From positions 1 to 59,372 of the IMG/VR virus record IMGVR_UViG_3300007510_000006: a stretch of DNA of 59,372 nt; one strand, written 5' to 3'. Positions 8,979 through 46,244 of the stretch are shown in pieces (the first letter of the stretch is position 1; every line of letters starts with the position of its first letter). Made by a program: the position numbers and the translations under genes. This DNA comes from a virus. A model generated the notes under the pieces. It made no database searches and had not been told where the DNA came from. It saw only the letters and a program-made list of their open reading frames with translations.

Positions 8979-11900
8979 TAGATGACTCCTGATTCTGAAG
9001 ATGAAATCAGCTTGTACTTCAGTGTAATATCTGCTCTCTGGGTTCCTTTGCTTTCCACTGGATCAATGTCTATCGCTACTATCTTAATCTTAGTGCGGTA
9101 GCCTGTCATGTAGACAAAGGGCCAAACATCTGTCAGAGGCATGCTAAAGTCTTTTGCGTCGAGCCACACCTCCAGCCCAACAAATCTTTGTAGCTGGCCT
9201 ATGAATTTTCTGAACCTCTCAAGAGGTAGGCTCTTCCAGATCATTCGCCTGAGGGTATGATCCTGATAGAGCAACTGCATCTTGTCTGGACCATCAAGAA
9301 CTTTTGCGGAGTTACTTCTAACTCCAAACTCAAACTCATATTCCACTGGGTTAGCTTGGAATTTGAGCAGCTTGTTGCCATTTATTTTAGCGTCCCATAA
9401 CTCAAATTGAGCGGCGATAGCATCTGAATATGTTTTACCGCCCCACTGTTCTGCAATTATATCTGTTCGGTATCTGTAGTATGTGGATTCCGCATCCTCT
9501 ATGTTCATTAACTGACCGAATTTATGGTCGTTAAACTTGGTGCTTCCTTCGGGTATTAGGAGATTAATTCCCCCTTCATCGTAAAGTGCTTCCCAAGTAA
9601 GATCTCCTACTGTAACAATAGGATCCACGTAATCTTCTAGTGTCAGTGCATCTGAAAGTCCGGGATAATCAAGAGTTACTGAGTTGGAATCCTCACTAAG
9701 AAATCCCTCTCTGGATGCATATACTTTGTAAGCATCTCCCGTACTCCAAAAATAATCGTAAAAATCGATTGCGGATAATCCATCAGCACTCTCTATTGTA
9801 GCGAATACTACTCCATTGCGCTGTATGTTAAAGGTCTGATTCGTGGGAGTAGCGGGAGCGATTGTTATCTTAGCTAAATAACCATTGAGTAATTCTACGG
9901 AAATGGACGGAGCTTCGGGCGCACCGGAAATTACCTTATAGGCATAAAGTTCTGTACCTGTTTGGTCATAAAGAGATACTGGAAGAATCTTATAATGAAA
10001 TACGGGTGTACCATATCTGGCCTCTAGGTCGTCAAATGTGCTCAAGGATGTGGAGTCGGAATACAAGTTATAGTTGGGGATGTCTGAGAAATCTGAGGGA
10101 TCCGGAGTTTCATTCTGCTGTAACCGGAATACTTTTACATCTTTAATCCCCATTGGGTTGCGTATATTCCCAATTAATAACTTTATGTAAGACTGGTTAA
10201 TATCATTGATAGCTGTAGTTGTGTCTAGCGTAAGATATGGATTAAACTCTGTAAACCAAGCAGAGGAGCTTGCGCCGTCTAATTCAACAGATTCTCTTGG
10301 CCACAGAGGAACAACTTGTTGTTCAGAATCACCTTCTGCTGAAGGAGAATGGAAGGTGAGAAAGTCAACATTAAATGTTTTTCCAATCATATCATTCAAC
10401 GAATCCACATCAATAAATTCGCGTGGAGATGATAGATACGAAAGCACTCCTGTTCCAAGATCAAACCATGTTCGATTTAATGGCAGTACATTTTTTGCCG
10501 AATCAGAATTTACCAAGTACCACCCTTGTCCAGTCGGAGCATAGGCAGCAGATAGAGGGTTTGGTAGGACGGTGGAATCTTCGTTGCCGGAATGAGTGAG
10601 GGTTCCATAGAGATTCACATTAGTAGAGGAGGGGAAGCTATACGAATCCATTGTGAATGTGCATTTAGTCTGTCTTTGAATCGGATTGGTAAATCCTATT
10701 CCATTGGGACTCCAGTCTCCCCAAATATTTTTCGCGAAAATTCCATAATAGTAATTTACTAAAGAGTAGGCTTGGTCATGTGTCTGGTTTCCGAGTCCAG
10801 AGTATATTATTTCTCCGTCATTGTGGTCGGTAGGGAATGCCGTTGCATTTCTAACAACTCTAATTTCCTCTATGTGATCATAGCCTGCAGGGTTGTTCCA
10901 CTTCAAGAGAACTAACGCAGTACCTGCTCCATCTACCATGAACCCAGTCGGTGGGGGGCATCCCGCCGCAGTTAAGTCTGTATTTGCTGCGGCAACTAAA
11001 TCCGGTCTTCCATATCCGAATCTTGGGTCCCAAACCGCCGTCTGTCCTTCCATGCCAGGATATTTCCTGCAAGAACTAACTAATACTTGTTTTGCTTCGA
11101 AATAATTTAGCTCTGGTCTTCTCTCGCGAAAGACAGTTATCGCTCCTGCAGCGTTAGGAATAGAGGAACTCTGCCCAGAAAATTCTCTAAATGTCCCTTG
11201 TCCGTCATCACCAACATATTCACTTGCGGCAGCATGGGGCACAGGCGTCACAAAAGTAAGTCCTTCTCCCCACGTATATGTCCCTGAAGTATTATCCCAA
11301 ACGCTTACAGCACCAACCCTGATTAAGTCACCATCTTGTGTGTGGTATCTTTGCTCATTACTCCAAAATCCTGCAATTGGCCACACATCATGCTCTAGTA
11401 AGTATTCTGAAGTTATAGAGTTGGCGATAGAGCCAACAGGAATTAATCCGCTGTCTCCATTAATGTCATAATAATTAGCTGTTCCTCCGAAGACGGAAGC
11501 GTTTCCGCGTAACGATAGCGATATCGTGTCGATAATTCCATATTCTGCTGCTGTTAGCATGTTGGCGTATGTTACACGAGGCTCGACCATGACTCCTGGT
11601 GCTTGGCCGACCATACCTTGATCGTTCCACCGCCCTGCGCCTATATGAATAGTAGAGGGGAAGTGGTATTCTTCCGTTAGCGACCAGTCAGTAACTTCGT
11701 CGTATGCTTCCATCTCTGCAACAGAAACAGTTTGACCTAAAATACGATCCATATTTCTAGAGAATACAGGATGAGTTCCAGCGTTGTAAGCTTCTACCTC
11801 ATCGTCTAAGCCATTACTTAGTCCATCCCCACCTAAGTCGGTATGATACAGACCAAAGGCAAGGGTTTCGCCAGTTCCCCAGACCATCCTATGAGTGGGT

Positions 11901-12919
11901 AAAGCTGGGTAAAGAGGGCTCCCTAGAATGTTAGGTCGGTAAAACCCAGTATTAACTGTAGAGTCCGTTTGGAAGTTTTCAGTATTCCAACCAAATAAGT
12001 CGGAACGTCCCGTGGCTGCAGGAATATACTTCTCCCCAGAAACATAATCTGCATTCACACACTGACCGTCAGAGCTATCAGCGGACCAGTGAAGTTGATG
12101 GCAAGCTCCTGCGATGACCACCATATTGTTAGATCCAGTGTAGACAGCGCTGTGGCCATCAGCCTCTGTTAGGGAGGAGAGATCTACATATCCCGTTTCG
12201 CTTTCTCCATCCCAGCCCATCACATCAAACGCAATATCATAGTATGCTCCTGCAATAGCAGCGGAGACATTTTTTGCTTTATATCTATGCAAAGAAAAAT
12301 AGTAGACTGCCGCGTCTTCCCGAACAGGGAAGAGTACATACCTATTCTCGTAATTAGTAGTATCTAGTAAATCGCCATCAATAACTAATTGATCAAAATA
12401 GGTTTCAGCAACCCTCATTGTTACCCTAGAGTTTGCTCCGGCTCCTGCGCCGATAGACAGTATAGTGTTATATCCTGACCATCCTGGACACCAAACGGCG
12501 TAGTCCATGCACACCATCGCGGAGCTATCCCAAAATCCTTGTATATAATCTTCCGGCCAAATACCTAGTTCGTTCCAGTACTGGGTAGCAGGACTATTGC
12601 CAGTTCTTAAACATTGACGACAAACTGCATTGTCTGTGTCTGCTGAACAAGAGGCATTGAATTGTTCTTCTGGTATTACAGAAGAAACTACTGCAAAGTT
12701 TAATAATTCATCTTTCGCTTTTGTTTCTAATCCTGCTTTGATATCAATATATCTCATAGCCCACGAGTGATTATCTCCGTCCGAAGTTCGTCCCAACAGA
12801 TAGTGGATCTCTTTATCCACGGAAAGACGAGTAGCGGAGATAATAAAATCCCGATCCTTCTCAATATCAATCTTCCGACCAAGAAGTATGTACAATCTCT
12901 TAGTCACTGAAGTCATCAT
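8978..12919 (-). CDS. tail protein with degenerate subtilisin-like (S8) domain and FN3 module
   Basis: 1313 residues, start ATGATG after AAGGCGG, overlapping the upstream gene by 20 nt. Residues about 500-640 follow the end of a subtilase fold: IRVGAVSVWDN, then GEGLTFVTPVPHA, then a serine box SGQSSSIPNAAGAITVF near residue 580 where typical enzymes read SGTSMATPHVAG, and finally FGYGRPDLVAAAN. The serine is kept, but the usual PHV is PNA. The catalytic Asp and His cannot be placed with confidence, so activity is uncertain. A fibronectin III-like module follows (about 650-740, starting PPPTGFMVDG). The C-terminal 200 residues look like a conserved tail domain. Possible roles are processing of tail proteins or digestion of surface protein at the host; it could also be a dead scaffold. 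Confidence 0.75.
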   Translation of the reverse strand: MMTSVTKRLYILLGRKIDIEKDRDFIISATRLSVDKEIHYLLGRTSDGDNHSWAMRYIDIKAGLETKAKDELLNFAVVSSVIPEEQFNASCSADTDNAVCRQCLRTGNSPATQYWNELGIWPEDYIQGFWDSSAMVCMDYAVWCPGWSGYNTILSIGAGAGANSRVTMRVAETYFDQLVIDGDLLDTTNYENRYVLFPVREDAAVYYFSLHRYKAKNVSAAIAGAYYDIAFDVMGWDGESETGYVDLSSLTEADGHSAVYTGSNNMVVIAGACHQLHWSADSSDGQCVNADYVSGEKYIPAATGRSDLFGWNTENFQTDSTVNTGFYRPNILGSPLYPALPTHRMVWGTGETLAFGLYHTDLGGDGLSNGLDDEVEAYNAGTHPVFSRNMDRILGQTVSVAEMEAYDEVTDWSLTEEYHFPSTIHIGAGRWNDQGMVGQAPGVMVEPRVTYANMLTAAEYGIIDTISLSLRGNASVFGGTANYYDINGDSGLIPVGSIANSITSEYLLEHDVWPIAGFWSNEQRYHTQDGDLIRVGAVSVWDNTSGTYTWGEGLTFVTPVPHAAASEYVGDDGQGTFREFSGQSSSIPNAAGAITVFRERRPELNYFEAKQVLVSSCRKYPGMEGQTAVWDPRFGYGRPDLVAAANTDLTAAGCPPPTGFMVDGAGTALVLLKWNNPAGYDHIEEIRVVRNATAFPTDHNDGEIIYSGLGNQTHDQAYSLVNYYYGIFAKNIWGDWSPNGIGFTNPIQRQTKCTFTMDSYSFPSSTNVNLYGTLTHSGNEDSTVLPNPLSAAYAPTGQGWYLVNSDSAKNVLPLNRTWFDLGTGVLSYLSSPREFIDVDSLNDMIGKTFNVDFLTFHSPSAEGDSEQQVVPLWPRESVELDGASSSAWFTEFNPYLTLDTTTAINDINQSYIKLLIGNIRNPMGIKDVKVFRLQQNETPDPSDFSDIPNYNLYSDSTSLSTFDDLEARYGTPVFHYKILPVSLYDQTGTELYAYKVISGAPEAPSISVELLNGYLAKITIAPATPTNQTFNIQRNGVVFATIESADGLSAIDFYDYFWSTGDAYKVYASREGFLSEDSNSVTLDYPGLSDALTLEDYVDPIVTVGDLTWEALYDEGGINLLIPEGSTKFNDHKFGQLMNIEDAESTYYRYRTDIIAEQWGGKTYSDAIAAQFELWDAKINGNKLLKFQANPVEYEFEFGVRSNSAKVLDGPDKMQLLYQDHTLRRMIWKSLPLERFRKFIGQLQRFVGLEVWLDAKDFSMPLTDVWPFVYMTGYRTKIKIVAIDIDPVESKGTQRADITLKYKLISSSESGVI

Positions 12920-25735: not shown

Positions 25736-25984
25736 TTATTCTTCATCCTCAGGATGGAATACTATAACATTTTGGTGATCAGAGGCTTTTTTAGATGGAC
25801 CATGAATAGATTCATATTTCCTTTGTCTACTAAATTCCTTTAACCATTCATCGAACTTTGTGTCATCTCGAATGGTTTCCTCATCCGGCTTGTCCTTCGG
25901 ATCCATTTCCTCTACCATTTCATACAAACTAATAAATTCTAGTAGTCTCAATTGTAGATCTGATAGTTCCAAAGTGCCGCTCAC
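25736..25984 (-). CDS. tail assembly chaperone, frameshifted C-terminal part
   Basis: Counted as a separate ORF it is 82 residues with a GTG start and no SD. The same frame is open upstream to 26077, where it overlaps the end of the previous gene in its -1 frame and reads sensibly (RARYRFSKELGIPFFPGVSG leads into the GTG codon). The position between tail-tube protein and tape measure is that of the lambda G/GT pair. I therefore read it as the T part of a -1 frameshift product rather than an independent gene. It is acidic (MVEEMDPKDKPDEETIRDD) and soluble. Such proteins bind the tape measure during assembly and are not in the virion. Confidence 0.65.
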   Translation of the reverse strand: MSGTLELSDLQLRLLEFISLYEMVEEMDPKDKPDEETIRDDTKFDEWLKEFSRQRKYESIHGPSKKASDHQNVIVFHPEDEE

Positions 25985-26004
25985 ACCAGGGAAGAACGGA
26001 ATAC

Positions 26005-26077
26005 CTAATTCTTTTGAGAATCGGTATCTTGCTCTGATATCATGTCTCCTGGCGATTGCCCGTACTCCAGAAAATCC
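26005..26077 (-). other. predicted -1 frameshift window, chaperone G to GT
   Basis: In this overlap the zero frame (ending at TAG 26007-26005) and the -1 frame (open from just after a TGA at 26080-26078) are both readable. A -1 slip joins the 263-residue protein to the 82-residue downstream frame. Two candidate slip sites are visible: GATTTTC near 26075-26069, where the A-site TTT re-pairs perfectly, and TCAAAAG near 26018-26012, just before the zero-frame stop, where AAG re-pairs as AAA. Neither is a perfect X-XXY-YYZ heptamer. Confidence 0.5.
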
Positions 26078-26796
26078 TCAAGTCCTTCTCCCATCCAATA
26101 AGTACTGCAAGCACTAGTCAATCTTTGAACAAAATCAAGATCTCTCTCCTGATTAAGTTCGCCAACAGATGGGTAAATCGGAGTTTCTTTGCCATTATCA
26201 GATACTTCCTTTGCGCATCTTACGATTAAGAAACTCTGCTCTGCGTTATCTAAATACTGGTCAATGGAGTACTGTGTAATCTCAGAGTATTCCATCGCAA
26301 TCTGAAGCTGTTCGGCCTTCAGTTCGTTTATTCTTGCTGATAGCTTTCTCTTCTTTGCAAGGTTTTTGGCCTTGTTCTGCTCAGTAATAAGCTCCTCGAC
26401 TTCAGCAACTAACTCAGAAGTACGTGCTTCCTTCTCGTCTGTCCAAATACCGGCTAGCTTTGCCTCACCGATAAGTTGCTGTCTGGGAAGTAATCCGTCC
26501 TTCAATGCTTTGATATAGTAGGAATTCTTGTATCTGTCAGCATCATTCTTGTCCTGAAATGAGGGGCGATAAATTCTGATTATACGAGAATTGTTGTGCT
26601 TGCACTCTTTGATGTCACACATAGGCTTTGTTCTGCCTCCTTCGTAGCATTCTTGGCGTAACTTACACCTAATACCTGTATCATGTGTGCAAGGGAAATT
26701 ATCTTCTAAATGGTCTGAAGCGATTCTCGCAAGAAGCTCTTCCTCTTCTCTGCGCTCCTGCTCCAACTGTTCCTTTGTCTTTTCAGGATTTGACAT
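26005..26796 (-). CDS. tail assembly chaperone (G-like)
   Basis: 263 residues from ATG 26796, chosen because it has a strong SD (AAGGAGAAGGAT). The longer alternative from 26838 would begin inside a terminator hairpin and lacks an SD. The protein starts with a charged helix (KTKEQLEQERREEEELLARI) and then has a cluster CTHDTGIRCKLRQEC...CDIKECKH, which could bind zinc. A helical, Lys/Glu-rich remainder follows. It ends at TAG in SQKN-stop. Position between the tail tube and tape measure indicates a tail assembly chaperone. The Cys cluster is unusual for that role, so this assignment rests on synteny. Confidence 0.65.
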   Translation of the reverse strand: MSNPEKTKEQLEQERREEEELLARIASDHLEDNFPCTHDTGIRCKLRQECYEGGRTKPMCDIKECKHNNSRIIRIYRPSFQDKNDADRYKNSYYIKALKDGLLPRQQLIGEAKLAGIWTDEKEARTSELVAEVEELITEQNKAKNLAKKRKLSARINELKAEQLQIAMEYSEITQYSIDQYLDNAEQSFLIVRCAKEVSDNGKETPIYPSVGELNQERDLDFVQRLTSACSTYWMGEGLEDFLEYGQSPGDMISEQDTDSQKN

Positions 26797-26814
26797 ATCC
26801 TTCTCCTTTTCCAA

Positions 26815-26864
26815 AGAAAAAAGGGGCCTACGCGCCAAGCACTAGCAAGACGAATAGACCCCTT
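26815..26864 (-). terminator. intrinsic terminator after tail tube gene
   Basis: On the minus strand, arm AAGGGGTCTA (26864-26855) pairs with TAGGCCCCTT (26830-26821) over 10 bp with one G-U pair. A 24-nt loop separates them, and TTTTTTC follows directly. It lies between the tail tube stop (26916) and the chaperone SD, so it should limit transcription past the abundant tail tube message. Confidence 0.75.
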
Positions 26865-26915: not shown

Positions 26916-27644
26916 TTATGCGTCTAGCGGATCTCTCTCTGCAATTATCTGATCACCAACCCAAGTAACGGCGTTGAATGTGAGAGTTAAGTCATCACTT
27001 AAACGACCCGGAACATCGATTGAGTGTCCGAAGCTGGTAACTTTACCACCAGTCATCGTGATATACTTGCAGCGGTTGTTCGCTACATGCTTCGCTGTGT
27101 CTGTGCTATTGAAAACATCAACACGAGCGGACAGGTTGGTAGCGCTCTGGAAGTCTGTGAGTTTCATTTCATGAACTTCATCACTATAGAATCCAGTGCC
27201 GTCTACGGTCATACCTGCAGCGATTGCGAATAGTTCCGCGTTAGAACCGATTGCGTTCAATGTCGCTGTAACCTCAGTTGACTCAACACCACGGAAGTAA
27301 GGCTCATGTTCACCAAGCTGCTCTAGCTGCTCTCTATTCCATGAAACATCAATCGAAATCGACTGGATTCTCTTGGAGTAGTAAGAAGAGCCTACTGTCG
27401 GGGCACTAGAACCAGCAGCGCCGGAACCACTATCCCAGAAGTAAAGCTTGGTATTACCTTTACGTAGACCAGCACGGCCTGTCGCGGTAGGTCCGGCGAA
27501 GTTTGTGCTGTCGCCCTCTAGACCTTCGTGTCTAGCAATGAGGCGGTATCTATTGGTCGCACTGAAGTCGATATTACCGAGATTACCTACTGTTGAGGCA
27601 ACCCAAGTACCATCGTAAGCCCAGTCTGCGTCTGTTTGAACCAC
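26916..27644 (-). CDS. second tail-tube-like domain, probably made by UAG readthrough
   Basis: As an independent ORF this would start at GTG 27644 and give 242 residues, but no SD precedes it. The frame is open for 29 codons further upstream to a TAG (27734-27732) that ends the tail tube gene in the same frame, and those 29 codons look coding (DFDYWNELGDLWRATTGEV, then GLYLTVDG). The sequence has a tail-tube-like core: SISIDVSWNREQLEQLGE, then VESTEVTATLNAIGSN. This is similar in layout to the first domain (SWGYSSDLASEEIEELGN, then TPTVSSTLDLNDYGS). I infer it is expressed as the C-terminal half of a 473-residue readthrough protein. An internal start or a nonsense mutation remain possible. 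Confidence 0.65.
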   Translation of the reverse strand: MVQTDADWAYDGTWVASTVGNLGNIDFSATNRYRLIARHEGLEGDSTNFAGPTATGRAGLRKGNTKLYFWDSGSGAAGSSAPTVGSSYYSKRIQSISIDVSWNREQLEQLGEHEPYFRGVESTEVTATLNAIGSNAELFAIAAGMTVDGTGFYSDEVHEMKLTDFQSATNLSARVDVFNSTDTAKHVANNRCKYITMTGGKVTSFGHSIDVPGRLSDDLTLTFNAVTWVGDQIIAERDPLDA

Positions 27645-27731
27645 ACCATCGACTGTAAGGTAGAGACCTGTAACTTCTCCAGTAGTTGCACGCCATAGAT
27701 CACCAAGCTCGTTCCAGTAATCAAAGTCACT

Positions 27732-27734
27732 CTA
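27732..27734 (-). other. in-frame UAG, candidate readthrough codon in tail tube gene
   Basis: The codon context on the minus strand is AGC ACT ACT TAG AGT GAC TTT. The frame continues without stop to TAA at 26918-26916. There is no start codon or SD between the TAG and the GTG 87 nt downstream. If read, one amino acid is inserted and a 473-residue product results. Confidence 0.6.
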
Positions 27735-28337
27735 AGTAGTGCTGTCACCTACACTAGGCGAAACAGCCAGAGCCATAGTACCATCACAGGCACCAGCTAT
27801 GGTTCCAGTTGGATCTGCTATATCATAATGAACAACCGGACGAAGAACACGGACATACTTATAATTGTTAATAAACTGCGTTTGCGCAGAGTTTTCTAGT
27901 GAAATCGACTCAGTAGCAAAGCCATCGACTGAATACGTTCCGCTGTAACTTGTTACTGTACAGTTGTTTAACCACACTGCACGATCATTAAGAGAATCGT
28001 CTGCCCCAGATTTGATATGGTTCAGAAGATCAACAGCGGCTTCCTCGAAGTGTGTATTAGTAACAGTCCAGTGTGTGCTATCATTATTAGCTGAATACTG
28101 CATGCGTTCGGAAAGAACTGCAAGAGTCTGCACTGAACCATAATCGTTAAGGTCAAGAGTAGACGAAACTGTGGGAGTGTCGTCAAGAACCTCAACAATA
28201 TTAGGATTACCCAGCTCCTCAATCTCTTCAGAGGCGAGGTCTGAGGAATAACCCCAACTAGTCACACGAGGAGTGATAAAATCGTCTATGACACAGGCAC
28301 TATGAGTGTGCTTAATTTGACGATGTTTTGTTGGCAA
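27732..28337 (-). CDS. major tail tube protein
   Basis: 201 residues from a TTG start at 28337 with a very strong SD (AAGGAGG, 7-8 nt upstream); no ATG competes. The N-terminal core (PRVTSWGYSSDLASEEIEEL, then VSSTLDLNDYGS) fits the tail-tube fold of the gpV/T5 pb6/SPP1 gp17.1 type. The gene lies after the head-tail joining genes and before the chaperone pair and tape measure. A terminator lies beyond the second half. It ends at TAG, after which the same frame continues into another tail-tube-like domain. In known phages, tail tubes are either hexamers of a single domain or trimers of a duplicated domain (T5 pb6), and this locus could provide both. Confidence 0.75.
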   Translation of the reverse strand: MPTKHRQIKHTHSACVIDDFITPRVTSWGYSSDLASEEIEELGNPNIVEVLDDTPTVSSTLDLNDYGSVQTLAVLSERMQYSANNDSTHWTVTNTHFEEAAVDLLNHIKSGADDSLNDRAVWLNNCTVTSYSGTYSVDGFATESISLENSAQTQFINNYKYVRVLRPVVHYDIADPTGTIAGACDGTMALAVSPSVGDSTT

Positions 28338-28361
28338 AACACTTCCTCCTTATAATAAAGG

Positions 28362-28931
28362 TTATTTTTGTCTAGGAACTCTAAGAGTAGTCGAAACAAC
28401 TCCTAAATATCTTCCGGCAAGGCTTTCGTCAGACGGATCGACTGCCTTAGATGAAACCGCCTCATCTGTTGTACCATAAACTAGAGTGGGAACAGATGAA
28501 TTATCCTCTAATAACAGCGGCATGCCCATATTATAATTCTTTATTGGGATGTCTCTATTATCTAGTAAATTCCTAACAAAGCTGGTAATCTTATTTAACT
28601 CCAGTTTTGAAGATGCGTATATAGTCACTAATGGGCTATAAACCATCATCCCTTCGTCTCCTCCGAGTTGATACGGATCCTCGTTAGATCCCGGAAGCTC
28701 GATAGTAATAATAGGCAAAGGAATCTGCCTATTCGGATCTTGTAATTGTTTACGTGTTACAATTACTTCTTCGTTGTGTACAAATGATATACGAATATTA
28801 GTGATACGAGTTGAATCGTTCGAAAAGACATAGAATCCATATAGCTTAAACTGTTCCGCTATATAAAATTTCAATGTCAATTCGCATAAAGAATCTAAAT
28901 CTAGATATGCGGACGATCCATCATAACTCAT
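28362..28931 (-). CDS. putative tail terminator / tail completion protein
   Basis: 189 residues. The SD is weak (the ATG follows GGTTTAAAA), and the gene begins 2 nt after the upstream stop, so coupled translation is likely. It shows alternating strands and helices, with an IITIELPGSNEDPYQLGGDE loop and a VYSPLVTIYASSKLELNKIT segment typical of small tail-terminator proteins. It lies directly upstream of the tail tube gene, the usual place for this protein. Assignment is by position and overall pattern. Confidence 0.55.
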   Translation of the reverse strand: MSYDGSSAYLDLDSLCELTLKFYIAEQFKLYGFYVFSNDSTRITNIRISFVHNEEVIVTRKQLQDPNRQIPLPIITIELPGSNEDPYQLGGDEGMMVYSPLVTIYASSKLELNKITSFVRNLLDNRDIPIKNYNMGMPLLLEDNSSVPTLVYGTTDEAVSSKAVDPSDESLAGRYLGVVSTTLRVPRQK

Positions 28932-28933
28932 TT

Positions 28934-29707
28934 TTAAACCGGCCCTGGGCGAGTAGTTTTACCGTGAATACTTTTGTTGATAGCATGTAATCCTCGGAAG
29001 GCTGCCTTCTGAAATCCACGGAGATCTTCCTGATAAACTTGGTGTGCTGACCTTAAGAAGAATCTCTTTGCTTTAAAGGGAGGATGCTTCCGTACCTTCT
29101 TGGCAAATACTGTCCCGCCAGCTTTTGAACTATAGAAAACTAAAAAAGGTTTGTTTATCGAAAGGGTTTTCCCTTTAGCGTTTACAATCTGCCCAACTGG
29201 GTTAATTTCATATCCTCCAGAATCTAATCCGAATTCAATTATCCTCCAGATAGAATGACCGTCTCTAGTGTTATATTGTCTGTTTGCTTCGGTAACTTCG
29301 CCGAGAGATGCTTTTAGAAAGGCCAGTCTCTCCTCTCTTGTCGCATAATCAAGCGCATTGATATTGCCAACACCCATTTTGAAAACACCTGTTCGACTTC
29401 CCCATAATCCGAAAAGCTTTTTCTGTTCGTAAGATAATTGATTTTTTATCGCATCTCTTACGACACCCTTGGGGGCAGGAGTCGGCTGATATTTGTTTGC
29501 TGGATTTATAAACATTCTATTGTTTTTGAATGGCCTTGAATTCATGCGACGAAGCACATTCTTGTGTATTTTTTCCATCGACGGGACTAGATAATCTCTG
29601 ACTAGCATTCCGTCTTTTCTACGCAAGGCGCTCATATGCCTGGAAATAGTTCCTCCCGGCCTACCTGTTATGCTGGAATGATTTATTTTCAGTCTTATGA
29701 GCGACAT
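28934..29707 (-). CDS. neck / head-tail joining protein (HK97 gp10-like position)
   Basis: 257 residues from ATG 29707, which follows GGAAAATAAT; a longer upstream frame overlaps the previous gene without an SD. The protein is basic (PGGTISRHMSALRRKDG, then VRKHPPFKAKRFFLRSAH). The ending pattern, in which basic aromatic residues precede a C-terminal helix, resembles phage minor tail or neck proteins of the HK97 gp10 group. It probably acts at the head-tail joint, but there is no decisive motif. Confidence 0.55.
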   Translation of the reverse strand: MSLIRLKINHSSITGRPGGTISRHMSALRRKDGMLVRDYLVPSMEKIHKNVLRRMNSRPFKNNRMFINPANKYQPTPAPKGVVRDAIKNQLSYEQKKLFGLWGSRTGVFKMGVGNINALDYATREERLAFLKASLGEVTEANRQYNTRDGHSIWRIIEFGLDSGGYEINPVGQIVNAKGKTLSINKPFLVFYSSKAGGTVFAKKVRKHPPFKAKRFFLRSAHQVYQEDLRGFQKAAFRGLHAINKSIHGKTTRPGPV

Positions 29708-29708
29708 A

Positions 29709-29990
29709 TTATTTTCCTGCGTTTTTAACGTATACCATAGCAATTCTGCGGAATTGATTTACGCTATCTAAAACAGATCCACGAACAACTTTCTTTGTCT
29801 TTGGATCTAATTTATCGTAGTTAGTGTGCTCCTCGATGGATTCCATGATTCTGCGAATAGCTCGCTGACATTCATGGGTAATTCCTTCGTCTGGGCCTCC
29901 GTGAAAGATAACTTTTGTGTGAAAATCTTCTTCCTTCTTCTGCCCAGTTCTGTCAATAATGACTCTGACGGGCTGATCCTTGTTATCCAT
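29709..29990 (-). CDS. small head-tail module protein, unknown
   Basis: 93 residues, SD TAGGGG formed partly by the stop codon of the upstream gene. Not recognised. It is a charged soluble protein with a helical C-terminal half. It contains QRAIRRIMESIEEHTNYDKL and lies in the run of small genes between capsid and tail tube, so a connector or adaptor function is plausible. Confidence 0.6.
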   Translation of the reverse strand: MDNKDQPVRVIIDRTGQKKEEDFHTKVIFHGGPDEGITHECQRAIRRIMESIEEHTNYDKLDPKTKKVVRGSVLDSVNQFRRIAMVYVKNAGK

Positions 29991-29998
29991 AATTTCCC

Positions 29999-30496
29999 CT
30001 AACTTATTTTATGCGCCAATACCTTTACAAAAAAATCCAAATCCCCGTAACCTTCAATACTATAAGAATCTATAGCGTACCGTTGCCCACCCCATCCCAA
30101 TTCAGCGTCACTTTCTCTATCAAATAAAGTATGATTCGGATGCCCTATTGGGTCATAAATCACATCGTCAAGGCGAAACATAACGTAGTAGGAGCCTTTA
30201 TGAAAGGACCCTGCTGGGAGTTGTTCTATTTCTCCGTAGCGAACTTTACTTGATGGTTCGGCAGAGGTAACAATTCCTAGTAGGCAGGAAGATGAGTCCT
30301 GATAGTCGAGGGTGGACTCCTCCACATAACTATCGAACTCATCAACAAAGAGATCGCCTCCCACTTGCAAATCTCTTTCTACTCTGGAAGGTTTGCCAAA
30401 ATAATAGACTTCACGGGCATGACGATTAAAGAGTCTCAGAAAAGTTTTCTGAGCTACTTTCGCTGATCGCGTACCCTTATTGACTGTTGAAGCCAT
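29999..30496 (-). CDS. head-tail connector-region protein, unknown
   Basis: 165 residues. The ATG overlaps the TAA of the upstream gene (TAATG). It has a basic N-terminus (NKGTRSAKVAQKTFLRLFNR) followed by a beta-rich domain (PAGSFHKGSYYVMFRLDDV). The order capsid, adaptor, stopper, then tail terminator makes it a candidate head-closure or stopper protein by synteny. I do not recognise the family. Confidence 0.55.
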   Translation of the reverse strand: MASTVNKGTRSAKVAQKTFLRLFNRHAREVYYFGKPSRVERDLQVGGDLFVDEFDSYVEESTLDYQDSSSCLLGIVTSAEPSSKVRYGEIEQLPAGSFHKGSYYVMFRLDDVIYDPIGHPNHTLFDRESDAELGWGGQRYAIDSYSIEGYGDLDFFVKVLAHKIS

Positions 30497-30984
30497 TAGT
30501 CCTCTACACCTGTGTCATAAATTGGAATTCTTATGGGCATCATTTTCTTACCTAATTGGTAATCACGCAGCGCAGTTTTATAGTTATCTCTTAATATTTG
30601 AAGATTGGATTTCATGGAATTGATAACACTTTTCTCATCTAGGGAAGCGGGGCCGAGAGTTGTTGACACACCACCACCTTCAGCAATATACGAATAGTAC
30701 TCTGCCTCTAGTATTAGAAGCTGACCAGCAAGACAGTACATGGCCTCCGCTGTATCATTCATTCCAGAAATAAGGTAACTCGTGTAAACATTGTCATCTT
30801 CATCAGTAATATTGTCTGTTCCACCTAAACCAACTGAGTTAAGCCCGGAGTCTTGCTCAATGGCGACTCTTAGCATTTTCTTTAGTTGATTGTCAGTATA
30901 ACGATTCTCATTATCGTCTTCGTTGAAATCACCTATCATGACACGAATTCTGAGAAGCATTATTTCTAATTGAGACAGCGCCAT
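30496..30984 (-). CDS. putative head-tail adaptor protein
   Basis: 162 residues, ATG after AAAGAGG. It is helix-rich: LSQLEIMLLRIRVMIGDFNE and DNENRYTDNQLKKMLRVAIE are the pattern of gp6/gp15-like adaptor proteins (a short helix, the phrase Y-T-D-x-x-L, then an alpha hairpin). The first gene pair after the capsid terminator, it probably binds the portal ring and connects it to the stopper. Moderate confidence from pattern and position. Confidence 0.6.
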   Translation of the reverse strand: MALSQLEIMLLRIRVMIGDFNEDDNENRYTDNQLKKMLRVAIEQDSGLNSVGLGGTDNITDEDDNVYTSYLISGMNDTAEAMYCLAGQLLILEAEYYSYIAEGGGVSTTLGPASLDEKSVINSMKSNLQILRDNYKTALRDYQLGKKMMPIRIPIYDTGVED

Positions 30985-30995
30985 TAGAAACCTCT

Positions 30996-31481
30996 TTAAG
31001 TGTCGTACTCTTCACCAGTTTCAACATCGATGCTAGAGATCTCACCTTCTAGCCTAATGATTCTGGCCTCAATAATCTTTATAAAATCATCTCGACTGCG
31101 TGTGGCGGCTTCCTCAAGCAGTCTCTTTAGGTTTGCTATACCTAACTGTTCTACATGGGTAGAGAAAACAGCCGCCGGGAGAGCAAAATAATTAAACATA
31201 TCTTCGTGAGATAATAATTCTTCACCATCGGCTAGCTTTACTCCATATAGAATGACTTCTCCGTCTTCTGTAATATGAACACTTTCATCTAATTTAAGCC
31301 ACCGCTGTAATTTGCGATCTTTCTGGCAATTAACCCATGCTTTCCAAGTAATTTCAGCTACTTGGCCTGAGGTAATTATCACAGACTTATCGCCGTCCAT
31401 GATGGCAATGTGACCAGCACCCATAACATTCTTTACGCGAACAATCGAATTTGAATCTTGAATTTTAAACACATTACTCAT
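30996..31481 (-). CDS. small structural-region protein, unknown
   Basis: 161 residues from ATG 31481, chosen for its strong SD (GGGAGG). The longer frame starting at 31547 would run through the terminator hairpin. The N-terminal half is beta-rich (SIVRVKNVMGAGHIAIMDGD) and the C-terminal half is a coiled helix (IANLKRLLEEAATRSRDDFI). Its function is not recognised; it sits just after the capsid transcript terminator. Confidence 0.6.
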   Translation of the reverse strand: MSNVFKIQDSNSIVRVKNVMGAGHIAIMDGDKSVIITSGQVAEITWKAWVNCQKDRKLQRWLKLDESVHITEDGEVILYGVKLADGEELLSHEDMFNYFALPAAVFSTHVEQLGIANLKRLLEEAATRSRDDFIKIIEARIIRLEGEISSIDVETGEEYDT

Positions 31482-31506
31482 GTGTCGCCTCCCTTCAAAA
31501 GAAGGT

Positions 31507-31545
31507 CGCCGGGGCGAGAGCAACCTGACGCTCTCGCCCCATATC
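31507..31545 (-). terminator. strong hairpin downstream of major capsid gene
   Basis: A perfect 11-bp inverted repeat, GGGGCGAGAGC (31511-31521) and GCTCTCGCCCC (31530-31540), encloses an 8-nt loop. It lies 20 nt past the capsid stop. A short TTCTTTT tract follows about 6-13 nt beyond the stem on the minus strand, so it may be an imperfect terminator or an mRNA-stabilising 3' hairpin. Confidence 0.75.
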
Positions 31546-31559
31546 AACCTATTTAACTA

Positions 31560-32558
31560 TTAAGTTGCAGCACCCATCTGGATACGGAAGCCACGCTTAA
31601 GCTCAGGATCCTGAGCCAAGACAACGTACTTCTGGTCTCCACCGACGAAGCGTACCGAACGCATGGCTTGGAAGTCAGAGACGGCTTCGATGCCATAAAT
31701 ATTGGCGATCTCACCCATTCTGTCACCGATAATGTAAACATTATTAGTGTCCCAAGTGTAGCGGCCATACTTGTCATCCTGGAATTCAGGGATAGTAATG
31801 ACGTTAGCACCGCGATACTGACCAATCCAACCACGCTTCTGCAGTTCTTCCTTCTGACCTGGAGTCGCCTCGTTGGCGAGGAATCCAGTGAAGTCGCAGA
31901 TCGGCAGTAGATAATCGGCATGGCCGACGATAGCCTTTACGCCACCAGTACGGGCGATGACCTTGCGGAGAGCAAAGTCCAGTGTACCCTTATCGAGTTC
32001 GTAGCCACCAGTATAGATGTAGTTCTCATTACCAGCGTCTGTGTAACCATAGGTACCATCAACATCAACGATGTCATCACCATTGACGTAAGTATGGAGT
32101 TCATTAAGAACCTTGGCCATCTTCTTCTTGGCCAAGATGTCGCGAATACCCTCACGGATACTGGCAACGGAGCCGTAGTTACCATTAATTATATCTTCCT
32201 GATAAAGTTCGATAGTTGCGTTCTCATACTCATCAGGGATATAGACAATGGAACGGCTTTTCTTCAGGCGGAAAGACTGACGAATACCACCGGCAGAAAC
32301 CGTGGTGGCGGTGAAGCCATCAAGATCCTTGAACACAATGCGAGTAGCATTGCGCGGAAGAGTGGTACTCTTCAGAATCAGAGGAGTGAGATCCACATAG
32401 CGGAACTCATCCATTGCCTGACGGGTGATCTCAGCAGCAAACGCATGCCAAGCACCATTCATTTCAGGATTTTTAAAGTCCTCCGCGAGGCGCTTTAGCT
32501 GTTTCTCCAGCTTCGCATCAGCTTCGGATTCCTGAGTTCTGTGACGAATAACATCCAT
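31560..32558 (-). CDS. major capsid protein (HK97 fold)
   Basis: 332 residues, SD GAGGAG. The sequence follows the HK97-like layout: an N-terminal helical arm (ESEADAKLEKQLKRLAEDFK), then an E-loop/P-domain region (KSRSIVYIPDEYENATIELY, KKKMAKVLNELHTY) and an A-domain end (GQYRGANVITIPEFQDDKYG, then NVYIIGDRMGEIANIYG and a strand before VVLAQDPELKRG). It follows the protease/scaffold and decoration-like genes and is followed by a hairpin. An open antisense frame across it is a codon-composition shadow. Confidence 0.9.
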   Translation of the reverse strand: MDVIRHRTQESEADAKLEKQLKRLAEDFKNPEMNGAWHAFAAEITRQAMDEFRYVDLTPLILKSTTLPRNATRIVFKDLDGFTATTVSAGGIRQSFRLKKSRSIVYIPDEYENATIELYQEDIINGNYGSVASIREGIRDILAKKKMAKVLNELHTYVNGDDIVDVDGTYGYTDAGNENYIYTGGYELDKGTLDFALRKVIARTGGVKAIVGHADYLLPICDFTGFLANEATPGQKEELQKRGWIGQYRGANVITIPEFQDDKYGRYTWDTNNVYIIGDRMGEIANIYGIEAVSDFQAMRSVRFVGGDQKYVVLAQDPELKRGFRIQMGAAT

Positions 32559-32576
32559 TATTGTCTACTCCTCAAA

Positions 32577-33143
32577 TTAGTAGTTTACTCTGGCGAACGC
32601 ACCAGTAGTCATGTAGGTAACGTAGCCGTTCTTGTATTCCATGAAGATTGCGCGAGCCTTGCTTGTGGTCGCCTCTGCATAAGTCAGAGTCCACAGTCCC
32701 ATGGCAGGAGCAGCGCCATCAATATACATGGGGTCGCCATAGGCGGCAGCAGCCCATGTGGCTTGAGCGCCAGCAAGACCGGAGGTATTATCGGCGGTCA
32801 CATAGTCCTCAACGATAACACCCGGTTGATTAAGGTCGATACACACAATAGGTGTATTATCTAGGATTTTCTGCCCATAGGCGAACAGTGAGTCCTCATA
32901 CTCGTCTTCGTTGGGCCACTTGTACATGAGGAAGAACATGGCGGTTTCACCAGTAGTGTCTTCCCATACATTGTTGACCGAATCGATACGTTTGACGAAT
33001 TTGCGAGGCTCGAAAACTACGGCAGTTCCGTCCGCAGTGGTGACATCGCTAAGGACGCCAATCTGGCCCTGCCACACAACGCCACGACTCTTGAAGTTGC
33101 CGTTGTGGACAAATTCGGGCGCATTAGGAAAGCTAAGATACAT
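32577..33143 (-). CDS. putative capsid decoration/accessory protein
   Basis: 188 residues, SD AAGGAG. A beta-rich protein with no recognised catalytic motif; its segments IGVLSDVTTADGTAVVFEPR and VEDYVTADNTSGLAGAQATW fit a compact beta-barrel. Its place between scaffold and major capsid gene is the usual one for head decoration proteins (lambda gpD position). The name is inferred by synteny. Confidence 0.6.
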   Translation of the reverse strand: MYLSFPNAPEFVHNGNFKSRGVVWQGQIGVLSDVTTADGTAVVFEPRKFVKRIDSVNNVWEDTTGETAMFFLMYKWPNEDEYEDSLFAYGQKILDNTPIVCIDLNQPGVIVEDYVTADNTSGLAGAQATWAAAAYGDPMYIDGAAPAMGLWTLTYAEATTSKARAIFMEYKNGYVTYMTTGAFARVNY

Positions 33144-39218: not shown

Positions 39219-39818
39219 CTAGACCTTTGTTAAAACCTGCCCTGCTCCTAAATCGTACTCCGAAACAATCTCTAGTCCAAAATGACTGATAGCTTCTCTT
39301 GTGTCTTCAGCATGAGGGCCGTAAATATAATCATCATAGGCAATATATTTACTACCTACTTTTATAGCTAACTCAGTGTCTGAGATTATGGCCTCTTTCG
39401 AGTGATCTCCGTCAATAAAAACAAAATCAAAATATCCATCTCTGAACTCTTTGAAGTCGCTTGCGGTGTACAGCTTCTTAGAATCTTCAAGTATAAAAGA
39501 AAATCTATCGGGAAATTTGTCCGAAAGTACCGCGAAAGATTTTTTATTTTCTTTTATGTCTACAGATACAACATTAGCGTCTGAGATTAACAGCCACATT
39601 AGAGAACTATTCCCAGCATTAAATCCTATTTCTAGTATATTACTGGGAGAGGCTATTCTGCACATATCCTCAATACCGGAAAAAGATGCTGGATATAGTT
39701 CCCCTGTATGTGCTTTTCCTAATTCTTGTCTTATAGCCTTATACGTTTGGTATTTTTTGTTATGCTCGTAATCCTCGCATTCCTTTATTCTTACCCTTGT
39801 TGTACTAACAGGAATCAT
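39219..39818 (-). CDS. class I SAM-dependent methyltransferase
   Basis: 199 residues with strong SD (AGGAGG). A class I fold is shown by NILEIGFNAGNSS (motif I), VVSVDIKENKK (motif II-like) and FDFVFIDGDHSKEA (motif IV with the VFIDGDHS block typical of the Methyltransf_24 family, used in glycan and small-molecule methylation). It sits between a BppU-like receptor protein and a GT4 glycosyltransferase, so methylation of a sugar or virion glycan is plausible (inference). Confidence 0.75.
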   Translation of the reverse strand: MIPVSTTRVRIKECEDYEHNKKYQTYKAIRQELGKAHTGELYPASFSGIEDMCRIASPSNILEIGFNAGNSSLMWLLISDANVVSVDIKENKKSFAVLSDKFPDRFSFILEDSKKLYTASDFKEFRDGYFDFVFIDGDHSKEAIISDTELAIKVGSKYIAYDDYIYGPHAEDTREAISHFGLEIVSEYDLGAGQVLTKV

Positions 39819-40177
39819 TAGTTTCCTCCTACAGATGGAAGGACATTTACCTTGTATTGACCAACAACATCAGAAGTTTGTAGTATATTGTCGTTTACTC
39901 TAAGCTCTGCAAACAAACCATGGTGGGAACTAGTTGTGTCTGTTAGACTTAGTACGCAAGTACAAATGCCCATTGTTCCGTCCCCTACAACTTCACAGCT
40001 TGCATCCCATATGTATGTATCCGATCTAAATCCACGTTTAGCAGAAAAGTAGACGTATACATTTTCACTCAAAGTAACGGCTGTTCCATCTTGACTGATA
40101 TGAAATTCAAATCTAGGTGTAGTACCTTGGTATATATCTACTAAATCTTGGATTTTTTTATCTCTGGTGGACATCAT
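39818..40177 (-). CDS. BppU N-terminal-like tail/receptor-binding protein
   Basis: 119 residues, ATGATG after GGAGAG. The beta-rich domain (IYQGTTPRFEFHIS, then YFSAKRGFRS and LFAELRVNDN) follows the pattern of the BppU N-terminal domain, the beta-sandwich that attaches receptor-binding proteins to the baseplate. A longer copy of this type of domain begins the gene at 49222-50514. As a free-standing domain it may be a baseplate adaptor. It starts immediately after the repeat adhesin gene and overlaps the methyltransferase start (TAATG). Confidence 0.5.
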   Translation of the reverse strand: MMSTRDKKIQDLVDIYQGTTPRFEFHISQDGTAVTLSENVYVYFSAKRGFRSDTYIWDASCEVVGDGTMGICTCVLSLTDTTSSHHGLFAELRVNDNILQTSDVVGQYKVNVLPSVGGN

Positions 40178-40188
40178 CTCTCCATAGG

Positions 40189-41961
40189 TTAGTCTATATA
40201 TACCTCGACATGGTATGTCTTCATATATATATACGCCTTATAGGACCAATATGTAACATTTGAATTGATAACTTTTTGTGAAAAAAGAGGTTTCGAGGCT
40301 ACTGGGTCAGTTATTTGCACATATATTTTGTCGTAGTATAGATATGCTAGTACTTCACCTGCGGTAACATAAGTACTATAACTGCCTGTTGAATCATAGG
40401 TTGCACCAATCGAAGCGCTGTAAGAACCTGTTGTATCCCATGCTCCCTCTATAAATAAGAAGGCACTATAAGATGCTGTGGTATCGAACGCACCGATCAC
40501 CAACATGGAGTATGATCCAGTCGAATCGCTTGATTGGAAAATACTGCCGCTATAAGATCCTGTCGAATCGGATTCTAGTAGTAATGATCCTGAATATGAT
40601 CCAGTACTATCTATATCGGAATAAAAGATGGCACCGCTGTAGCTTGCCGTTGTATCTCGATTAGGTGCAATTAAGACGCCAGAGTAAGATCCAGTAGTAT
40701 CGAAGCGCCGGAGGATATTGCCACTATACGATCCGGTAGTATCAGTTGGTTTGCGAATAGAAGCCGAATAGGTGGCTGTGGAGTCGGATGTCTTGAATAT
40801 TGACCCTGACCAAGAGGCAGTCGAATCGTAGATAGAAAGAGTGCTGGCGCTATAAGATCCGGTAGAGTCAATAACACCTGTAAGGCTTGTCGAATAAGAG
40901 CCGGTAGAGTCGTATCTCTCTAGAATACTTCCTGAATAAGACCCGGTAGAATCATAAGCAGCTAAAACATCGGCAGAATACGACCCAGTGGAGTCTGTTT
41001 CTGCCGGAAAATTATACTTATTTATGAGATAGTCAAGAACTAATTGACTTTCATCGTAAGTTAGTTCCCCGTCATAGGTTAAGATCTCCGCTATATAGCC
41101 AGAGAAATCGGAATTTGTAATATTTCCGGCTTTACCAATAGTTGTTTTTGTTACTGTATTATCCGAAACAGATATTGTCTGCGGGAAGCTACCTACATTC
41201 CAAGCCGTGCTATCTCTGTGTACCTTTAAAGCAGTATTTGCATTATAGTAACCGGTTACGAATGTCCAAGTATCTGTGGGGCAGGTATATTCAATACTTT
41301 CTATACCAGAATCATAAATCCAGAAGTCACTTACACTTAATCCCCACTCATCTCCGAATGTCTTAAGTGACTCCGAAATAATAGCTTCCGATGCTCCGCC
41401 ACCAGAATCTTGCTTAAATACAGCAAAGATCGTTATTCCGTAATTCCACAAGGCGACGCAAGTAGAATCTAATCTAGACGACCCGTTCAAATAGATCGCC
41501 GGTAAGCCATTAATTATGTTTTCTTTAAATGTCGGAGAGCCTACTCCGAAGAAATCCGCCTGCAATCCTAGTGCGTCAGGCCACCACTCCACGGAGTCAT
41601 CATCGACATACGTCCCAGTAAGATGGTCGGCGGCTAACCATAAACTAGCTCGGTCAAGGAAGTCTCTTGCGGTATTTATATCATTTGGATGGAATGTAGT
41701 TGGGGCGGCTGACCATGTTCCTGTGCTATCGGATGTTTTGAAAAGAGATCCGGAATAACTACCAGTGGAATCGGTAAGTTTTAATACCGAACCTGAATAC
41801 GATCCAGTGGTATCTGTCTCCACGATACCTGAAGGGCGGGGAAAGGATCCCTGTAGATAGATAGGGAACCCTTCCTGCCAATCAGCCGGACTAGCAGCAG
41901 ATGTTGTGGAGTCGCTGCGAAGGCGGAGAAAGCCTTTATAAAAGCCGCCCTGAAAAGACAT
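40189..41961 (-). CDS. repeat-rich adhesin with LamG-like domain
   Basis: 590 residues. A first set of 3 repeats of D[S/T]TG[S/T][Y/W]S (about residues 48-85) precedes a LamG/concanavalin-like beta-sandwich (about 95-310; VALWNYGITIFAVF, then DFSGYIAEILTYDGELTYDE). It is followed by 15 further repeats (about 320-535), each 13-20 residues long with consensus D[S/T]T-[G/A]-[S/T]-[Y/W]-S-[G/A]-x and a variable hydrophobic spacer. The last 50 residues are beta-rich. LamG-like domains bind glycans, so this is probably a fibre or receptor-binding protein. The repeats may be a shaft or a glycosylation target. Confidence 0.75.
   Translation of the reverse strand: MSFQGGFYKGFLRLRSDSTTSAASPADWQEGFPIYLQGSFPRPSGIVETDTTGSYSGSVLKLTDSTGSYSGSLFKTSDSTGTWSAAPTTFHPNDINTARDFLDRASLWLAADHLTGTYVDDDSVEWWPDALGLQADFFGVGSPTFKENIINGLPAIYLNGSSRLDSTCVALWNYGITIFAVFKQDSGGGASEAIISESLKTFGDEWGLSVSDFWIYDSGIESIEYTCPTDTWTFVTGYYNANTALKVHRDSTAWNVGSFPQTISVSDNTVTKTTIGKAGNITNSDFSGYIAEILTYDGELTYDESQLVLDYLINKYNFPAETDSTGSYSADVLAAYDSTGSYSGSILERYDSTGSYSTSLTGVIDSTGSYSASTLSIYDSTASWSGSIFKTSDSTATYSASIRKPTDTTGSYSGNILRRFDTTGSYSGVLIAPNRDTTASYSGAIFYSDIDSTGSYSGSLLLESDSTGSYSGSIFQSSDSTGSYSMLVIGAFDTTASYSAFLFIEGAWDTTGSYSASIGATYDSTGSYSTYVTAGEVLAYLYYDKIYVQITDPVASKPLFSQKVINSNVTYWSYKAYIYMKTYHVEVYID
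40365..41010 (-). repeat. 15-copy tandem D[S/T]TG repeat array (protein level)
   Basis: Direct protein repeats with core DSTGSYSGS or close variants (DTTGSYSGN, DSTASWSGS, DSTATYSAS), 15 copies without interruption. Ser is encoded by both TCN and AGY codons and spacers vary. The DNA copies have therefore diverged, and selection is probably on the protein. Three more copies lie near 41695-41835. Confidence 0.8.
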
Positions 41962-43844: not shown

Positions 43845-44378
43845 TTATTGTTCGTCGTACCTGTAACTCCATACTTGAGGACCAACTACACCTGCCGTTG
43901 CACTAGCGCTCACCATAGCTTGAACCATAACAAAATCCTGAGTTCCATAGCCGGTGCTTGGGTTTGATAGAACCGTTCCTGAGTTAACCACCAGAGGTGA
44001 TGCTTTTGTATAGCTTACCGCGAGCCAGTGCGCGGTTGTGTCTCCAGTAGAATCAGCACTCACATTTTCCTGATATGTGTCAGTCTGATCTGCTAGTAAA
44101 ACTACTTGGGCATCAAGATTGTTCCCATCGGTGAAAAAACGTAAGTTGGAGATGCTGCTCGAAGGTGTTGTGGTAAAGTTTACTTTGAAATATTTTCTGA
44201 AAGAGTAGGTGTATGCTATGAGGGCATCGACCTGTTCTTGTGTCGGCACTCTGAGGGGAGCATTCAAATCAACAGTGTCGTTATCTGCTAATTTAAATCG
44301 CACTTCTCCGTTATTGATATTAGTACCGGAACCAGCCCCAGCGCCATGCCATGAATGAATTTGAACTGTTGCGGCCAT
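43845..44378 (-). CDS. structural-region protein, unknown
   Basis: 177 residues, SD CGAGG. Beta-rich and soluble, with a glycine-rich N-terminus (HGAGAGSGTNINNGEVRFKL) and a strand core (YSFRKYFKVNFTTTPSSSIS). It contains ADSTGDTTAHW, a DST motif. It sits just downstream of the large terminase gene and before the adhesin genes. Two tandem TAA codons end it. Probably a virion component; no family recognised. Confidence 0.6.
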   Translation of the reverse strand: MAATVQIHSWHGAGAGSGTNINNGEVRFKLADNDTVDLNAPLRVPTQEQVDALIAYTYSFRKYFKVNFTTTPSSSISNLRFFTDGNNLDAQVVLLADQTDTYQENVSADSTGDTTAHWLAVSYTKASPLVVNSGTVLSNPSTGYGTQDFVMVQAMVSASATAGVVGPQVWSYRYDEQ

Positions 44379-44396
44379 TATTAAACCTCGCTTTTA

Positions 44397-46244
44397 TTAA
44401 CGTCTTCGTCTAACGACGATTGGCCTCATTACTGAAAGTAAGCCGAGATTGCCTCTGGAGGTATCATCATCCGGCCTGACTTTTAATAAAAGGCCATGGA
44501 ATGCGTATAGTAAGGCGGAAAAAAGATCCTTGTACCCACGTTCAAGTGATTCGTCGGCTGATTTTCTTTCCGGCATATAAAATTTTAAACCTTGCCCGAT
44601 TGGTTTGGCCTTGATCTTTCGAAGCTGGCCTCGTAACGCTTGGATATCGCGATGCACTCTCTCTAGTTCTTGGTCACCTTGAATTGGAAAAGGCTTAGGG
44701 AGTAAAAAAGTTTTCTTCTGGAAGGCTGCCCGTAATCGAGTAGCGGTGTTTGTATTTAATTCAACAGTAGGATTGACCATGTTAAGAATAGGGATTCCGT
44801 TGCCAGATTCTGCTAGTTGCCTTTGGTTCTCATCAAATTCTGGATCTACTATAGGTATAGCTCCTGGTAACTTTGTCAGATCTGGATCAACGAGTTCATC
44901 CATAATACTTACTCCGTTACCTTTCTTATCGATATACACGGCTTCAACAGAAAACTGGTCAATTAGCCTGCGAATTAACATGGCCTGTTCTTTTATGGGC
45001 ATTTGCTTCTCAGTGCGTGCGTAGATTATATGATTAAACGGATCCCCATGAAGTTCGCCGGGTCGAATTATAACTATTGCTGTTTTATCGCTCTCTCTGG
45101 CAGGGTCAACTCCCATGATAGTCGCTTGGTCGCATTCTAATATAGGCTCTAAGAATGCAGCGAAATCTTTTTTCGATCCACCGAGTAGCGAAAGCTCTTC
45201 AGGAAACTTGTACTTGGAATTAGGATCATTTTGATCTGTAAATTCCATATTTGAAACTTCATTTATTAACTGGTACGGAAAGAATCTATCCCCAAGCTTT
45301 AGAGGACGATTCTTATTTTCAGCAAACCAGTCTTCGGAATCTACGGTATCGGATTCCTTGTCTTTAATTATCTCAGATAAGTTTATACGATAAAAGAATT
45401 TAACCTTATTCTGTTTTATTAGCTTATCGACATTCGAACTATTGATAGTTATACTCTCTGTGCTATCTAAATAGAACGTATCCTCAAAATTAAATTCTAT
45501 TATTGTATAATCATCGTCAAAGAGATCTGAATCAGGATCCATCTTCTCTTGATATTCATTTATCAAGGAAGAGTAGTAGTCATCCGAATATCCAATCGTT
45601 CCCGAGTACGTAAACCTATTAACGAGAGAGGTGTCTGCGTCTCCAATTGGGTTCTGTAGTACATTGGACATTGGTTTAATTACCTTATTGATTGCCCGAT
45701 CTGAGAAGTCTTTTACCTCGTCAAGCTTCGTGTAATTAGAACGAAGACCGCGTACCGTATCTCCTGTTTGCCCTATCGGACCAGTGAAGATCTGGGAACC
45801 ATTAGAGAATCTGATTCTCCAGAGGTCAGTGCCGCGAGTAATTACTTTTGCTTTATCAACGCAGGAGTTCAGGGCGAACAATGCTGTCTTGTCCTGTACT
45901 CCCATTTGACATCTTACGATAGGCTCTATACCAGCATCTTCAAAAGTATATCGTCCCTGTCTGAATCTAGGACCCAGAATTAGTATCTTAATTCCTGGAA
46001 TAAGTAGTGCGGCAAGTATTGACATGATAGCGTCGAGAGTGGTTTTCATCATTCCTCTAGAGAGCAGCTTGATAACATGGTGATTGTTCCACTCTTCTCT
46101 TATAGCAATCCGTACATGCGGAGCGTCAATAGGTAATCCCAGAATATCTCTTACAGCTAATACCGGATGGTTTATGTAAAACCATATCACCTTATAAAGC
46201 TGTTCTTTTTCTTCTTCCGTAAGTCGTACAGGAGCATTACTCAT
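44397..46244 (-). CDS. terminase large subunit
   Basis: 615 residues, SD AGAGGATAG formed with the stop of the small-subunit gene. An ATPase domain has a Walker A-like motif at residues 61-69 (LSRGMMKTT), LILGPRF and an acidic Walker B-like site. The C-terminal RNase-H-like nuclease shows IMGVDPARESDKTAIVII near 375, VEAVYIDKKGNG near 425 and DLFSALLYAFHG near the end. The enzyme pumps DNA through the portal and cuts it. The Walker A is of the SRGxxKT phage type, not classical GKT. Confidence 0.9.
   Translation of the reverse strand: MSNAPVRLTEEEKEQLYKVIWFYINHPVLAVRDILGLPIDAPHVRIAIREEWNNHHVIKLLSRGMMKTTLDAIMSILAALLIPGIKILILGPRFRQGRYTFEDAGIEPIVRCQMGVQDKTALFALNSCVDKAKVITRGTDLWRIRFSNGSQIFTGPIGQTGDTVRGLRSNYTKLDEVKDFSDRAINKVIKPMSNVLQNPIGDADTSLVNRFTYSGTIGYSDDYYSSLINEYQEKMDPDSDLFDDDYTIIEFNFEDTFYLDSTESITINSSNVDKLIKQNKVKFFYRINLSEIIKDKESDTVDSEDWFAENKNRPLKLGDRFFPYQLINEVSNMEFTDQNDPNSKYKFPEELSLLGGSKKDFAAFLEPILECDQATIMGVDPARESDKTAIVIIRPGELHGDPFNHIIYARTEKQMPIKEQAMLIRRLIDQFSVEAVYIDKKGNGVSIMDELVDPDLTKLPGAIPIVDPEFDENQRQLAESGNGIPILNMVNPTVELNTNTATRLRAAFQKKTFLLPKPFPIQGDQELERVHRDIQALRGQLRKIKAKPIGQGLKFYMPERKSADESLERGYKDLFSALLYAFHGLLLKVRPDDDTSRGNLGLLSVMRPIVVRRRR

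Follow-up and report, generated by a model that had tools for sequence, protein, structure and literature searches.

A single in-frame TAG in a two-domain phage tail-tube gene is probably an isolated nonsense codon

The tail-tube locus

The window, by which I mean the whole 59,372-nucleotide stretch of viral DNA analysed here (IMG/VR record IMGVR_UViG_3300007510_000006), is a partial genome, and its minus strand holds a frame that opens with a TTG at 28337, 7 nt downstream of a perfect AGGAGG Shine-Dalgarno (SD) sequence, runs for 201 codons (201 aa) to a TAG at 27734-27732 and then continues for 271 sense codons until a TAA at 26918-26916 (Table 1). The first potential restart past the TAG is a GTG at 27644, 29 codons (87 nt) on; neither this GTG nor any other internal start that was checked downstream of the TAG has an SD, and an SD is present in nearly all other genes checked in the window. 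A preliminary description of the locus, made from the sequence alone, was accurate in its coordinates, lengths, TTG start, strong SD, 201-aa product and GTG 87 nt on; its remark that no ATG follows the TAG is right for the upstream part of the continuation but wrong further on, since in-frame TTG and ATG starts occur 158-226 codons beyond the TAG. Alignments and fold models used a placeholder residue Q at the TAG, which says nothing on the residue encoded there.

Table 1. Features of the tail-tube region, in window coordinates
Feature	Coordinates	Strand	Remarks
Ribosome-binding region of the tail-tube gene (approximate bounds)	28339..28352	-	AGGAGG 7 nt before TTG
Tail-tube protein gene, two-domain, 473 codons including TAG, TTG start, one TAG inside	26919..28337	-	Uninterrupted 464-aa orthologue in G001
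Domain 1, tail-tube domain, residues 1-170	27828..28337	-	65% identity to G001; resembles domain 2 in G001
Linker, hypervariable, possibly an inserted domain; residues 171-279, contains the TAG	27501..27827	-	About 29% identity against 65-68% in the flanks
In-frame TAG, codon 202	27732..27734	-	Not present in G001
GTG, sole ATG/GTG/TTG within 150 codons past the TAG, without SD	27642..27644	-	Lies in a stretch with homology to coding sequence of G001
Domain 2, tail-tube domain, residues 280-473	26919..27500	-	68% identity to G001; Foldseek on a low-confidence model
Structured gap past the TAA, terminator-like stem and 15-nt block GGAATATACAAGGAA	26808..26915	-	Block common to G001
First frame of the tail assembly chaperone, in a gpG-like position	26005..26838	-	35% identity to G001 orthologue; between tube gene and tape measure
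Second frame of the chaperone, overlapping the first in -1 register (T-like position; upper bound approximate)	25736..26047	-	Same overlap in G001
Tape measure protein, 2114 aa	19379..25723	-	PHROG tape measure families down to 2e-56

Comparison with the only relative

Searches of viral contigs and genome contigs, together with tblastn and megablast on phages, returned a single relative of the tube gene, namely G001 (IMG/VR contig IMGVR_UViG_3300033148_002122, 116,752 bases), in which the gene lies at 43926-45320, is also TTG-started with a similar AAAGGAGG upstream of its TTG, and forms one 464-aa frame without a stop that is 58% identical to the window copy along its full length. The terminase (TerL) otherwise matched Bacillus Slash-type phages and a Microcystis phage at just 23-28%. 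G001 is colinear with the window over the shared part, and when 42 window frames were set against their best G001 match, the tube gene alone proved intact in G001 but interrupted in the window.

The part past the TAG matches the relative at E=8e-94, far beyond chance, and the stretch from the TAG to the GTG, which had been described as coding-looking, does align in frame with G001 (NELGD/NDLGE, TGLYLTVDGVVQ/TALYLTKNGVIQ); this interval was therefore coding before, and the GTG was no ancestral start. Because G001 has a single uninterrupted frame that is homologous throughout, the TAG-to-GTG stretch included, both halves descend from one ancestral gene. Identity falls to about 29% in the linker on either side of the TAG, between the better conserved domains 1 (65%) and 2 (68%), and the differences by codon position (0.33/0.19/0.56 in domain 1 and 0.27/0.19/0.58 in domain 2) point to coding sequence under purifying selection in both. 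Since the two domains are equally diverged from G001 and share this codon-position pattern, domain 2 has not decayed, and a stop in front of an undecayed domain is likely to be recent, erroneous or decoded. The equal conservation of both domains is a stronger sign of this than the missing further stops, which on their own date the event poorly, given that 5% neutral divergence left no new stop in 24% of simulated cases. A chimeric assembly join at the TAG was considered and rejected, as there is no step in the divergence from G001 across it.

Elsewhere the comparison brought up several further differences between the two phages. The 590-aa protein at 40189-41961 (minus strand) has several overlapping matches to a 1426-aa G001 protein (28304-32584), so that the G001 copy seems to have been expanded by internal repeats; the 119-aa (39818-40177, minus strand) and 430-aa (49222-50514, minus strand) proteins each match the other's G001 orthologue at 30-41% over short stretches, suggesting a shared domain or a duplication within these phages; and two blocks of the 1313-aa protein at 8978-12919 (minus strand) match a 1711-aa G001 orthologue (59300-64435) with about 1.2 kb extra in G001 between them, probably a large in-frame insertion or deletion in what is a probable tail protein.

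Domains and neighbouring genes

The preliminary description had read the two halves as similar tail-tube-like domains, and this holds up in shuffle tests, which were used since hhalign of the two-row profiles was weak (P 0.029): in G001, domain 1 against domain 2 scores 65 where shuffles score 33 +/- 5.5, with 0 of 1000 as good, and in the window copy 7 of 1000 shuffles are as good. Foldseek with a model of domain 2 (pLDDT 38.6) gave top PDB matches that are almost all tail-tube or Hcp proteins and, among viral models, many tail-tube proteins, with no E below 0.001 in either search; AlphaFold of the full-length protein reached pLDDT 28. Pfam holds no family and PHROGs no significant one for either half, and a profile search of PDB sequences returned spurious matches only. 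The order of the neighbouring genes, with the tube gene followed by overlapping chaperone frames and the tape measure, is also that of the two-domain tube type. Because gene position, domain-domain similarity and the domain 2 fold search (on a weak model) agree, the product is most probably a tail-tube protein with two domains, of the kind known from T5 pb6 and P74-26, in line with the earlier assignment to the tail tube, and by analogy three such subunits would make a pseudo-hexameric ring equivalent to the usual six.

The segment of about 110 variable residues between the tube domains is possibly a surface domain. Within it (27501-27827, minus strand) the window carries the pattern GLYLTVDGVVQ...W.YDGT.V and G001 TALYLTKNGVIQ...W.WDTT.V, a pattern that may resemble the small beta domains of phage tail fibres, and a decoration domain may have been inserted here to separate the tube domains.

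Downstream, the gap between tube gene and chaperone holds a terminator-like hairpin with z of -4.25 and -4.50 in the two phages (L001 6793-6890) and the 15-nt block GGAATATACAAGGAA, identical in both and found once per genome; this element is perhaps a partial terminator or processing site. Since this strong structure and the shared block follow the TAA, and none lies at the TAG, the end of the tail-tube unit seems to lie behind domain 2, as it would in a single gene. The chaperone frames overlap in the -1 register in both phages, an arrangement consistent with a conserved gpG/gpGT programmed frameshift, and a short A-run adjoins the overlap (CAAAAG at window 25736-26050, minus strand; CCAAAAAG at L001 7509-7892).

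Is the TAG decoded, tolerated or accidental?

The preliminary description proposed that programmed readthrough extends a small fraction of subunits, with a plain nonsense mutation or assembly error as its main rival, and it set conservation of the TAG in relatives beforehand as a check, counting a sense codon there as evidence against its proposal. G001, the sole relative, at 58% identity, supplies such evidence with a sense frame and no stop at that place, and with no RNA structure, suppressor tRNA or conserved TAG found, the balance has turned: the rival, unproven as it is, has become the leading explanation on account of the uninterrupted G001 gene. I regard the TAG as probably an isolated, non-programmed nonsense codon. 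Each subunit would then combine two tube domains and a variable linker in one polypeptide, the TAG would stand in the linker by accident, be it a mutation of recent date, a minority variant that entered the assembly or an error in the consensus, and the tail-building phages of the same kind would have a sense codon at its position. If, as the two-domain architecture of known tubes implies, every subunit requires both halves, the tube could not be made from a minor share of read-through product; the tape measure implies a tail so long that it would, by my estimate, need a few hundred full-length copies, so that weak readthrough would be insufficient.

I infer the accidental nature of the stop from several observations taken together: the stop-free frame of the only relative, colinear over 42 frames; homology that continues through the TAG-GTG interval; an undecayed domain 2, with its 65%/68% identity balance; RNA at the TAG with less structure than its shuffled versions (z +2.43); the absence of a suppressor tRNA from both the window and G001; a terminator-like element after domain 2 and not after domain 1; and two domains that are alike, the second of which resembles tube proteins. 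Against this, an abundant phage should carry no nonsense codon in an essential structural gene, the comparison rests on one relative at 58% identity, and the TAG sits in the linker, the least harmful place for a functional recoding site (and one that chance alone would pick in about 23% of cases). A suppressor tRNA could, moreover, sit in the part of the genome that the window lacks, where G001 keeps its own.

That last point leads to efficient decoding of the TAG, by a host amber suppressor or by a phage tRNA outside the assembled part, which would give mostly full-length subunits and would account for the lack of decay in domain 2. The ten tRNAs of G001 lie at 3-5 kb and 95-105 kb, genome parts that the window is without, and the window itself contains no tRNA. 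However, none of those ten has a CUA anticodon, TAG terminates 11 other window genes, and stops behind it show no sign of backup selection, the median distance to the next in-frame stop being 7 codons after TAG and 3 after TAA (p about 0.1), with no enrichment behind TAG; I consider this reading unlikely. The same stop usage bears on a code 15-like reassignment of TAG to an amino acid in late genes, which is known in other phages (PMC10607447, PMC9523058) and which I hold to be extremely improbable here, largely refuted as it is by that usage; about 44 genes were checked, and just one TAG stands in frame. TAG is not reassigned genome-wide, as had been stated from the outset, because those 11 genes end in it, and where G001 has an orthologue the window gene stops close to the point at which the orthologue does, with the exception of a 1802-aa gene of variable C-terminus.

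Programmed partial readthrough, in which domain-1-only and full-length forms would arise in a fixed proportion and assemble together, the linker serving as decoration much as in the SPP1 pair gp17.1/gp17.1*, I likewise judge unlikely, even though the domains on either side of the variable linker that holds the stop are intact and conserved and the tail-tube genes of SPP1 and Listeria phages give two forms by frameshift (PMC8718954, PMC5009743). Here the relative encodes the full-length form only, the extension is a second tube domain and so more than decoration, and no stimulatory RNA structure was found near or 3' of the TAG. Some readthrough sites work without a 3' structure, Rfam has no match anywhere in the window, and a literature search found no phage tail-tube gene with stop readthrough. 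More specifically, a fixed TAG read through at a set rate would yield a mixed tube of one- and two-domain subunits, with the variable decoration domain on the read-through copies only, and this I find quite unlikely. A true split, with two polypeptides alternating in a six-membered ring and the second made from the GTG at 27644 or by reinitiation, fits a domain 1 that ends cleanly in the linker, and since two-domain tubes are thought to be products of duplication and fusion the reverse is conceivable (PMC10034513, PMC5717097); it is nevertheless very unlikely, as the first 29 codons past the TAG offer neither an SD nor a start, the GTG falls in a stretch that is homologous to coding sequence of G001, and an SD precedes nearly all other genes checked.

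The case shows how programmed recoding can be mimicked by a lone nonsense codon in a metagenomic contig, and how one uninterrupted relative shifts the odds. The window phage and G001 add a divergent branch to the few described two-domain tail-tube proteins, a branch in which the segment between the tube domains is unusually long and fast-evolving. If the TAG were real and decoded, this would be, to my knowledge, the first tail-tube gene with stop-codon readthrough.

Comparison with known systems

The closest parallels lie among tail-tube proteins with two domains in one polypeptide. The T5 protein pb6 carries a duplicated tube domain and forms a trimeric ring (PMC5717097, PMC8718954), and the likeness drawn to it in the preliminary description is well founded, the gene here, placed as a tube gene would be upstream of the tape measure, likewise encoding two tube domains in one polypeptide; however, no sequence similarity to pb6 was detected, pb6 is without an internal stop, and its Ig-like domain is at the C terminus, whereas the extra variable segment here lies between the tube domains. 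The P74-26 tail-tube protein has two domains and a linker and also assembles in trimeric rings (PMC10034513); it shares the order of domain 1, linker and domain 2 and the weak similarity between domains, but a hypervariable stretch of about 110 residues forms the linker here, and a TAG breaks the window copy. SPP1 gp17.1/gp17.1* and the tail proteins of Listeria phages, which gain a C-terminal extension by frameshift (PMC8718954, PMC5009743), resemble the present case as tail-tube genes with a potential short and long product, although their extension is an Ig-like decoration, whereas the sequence past the stop here stays in frame, holds a second tube domain and belongs to the normal product of G001. 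Lastly, code-15 phages, which read TAG as Gln (PMC10607447, PMC9523058), share an in-frame TAG in a late structural gene, yet the window phage has a single such TAG and uses TAG as the normal stop of 11 other genes.
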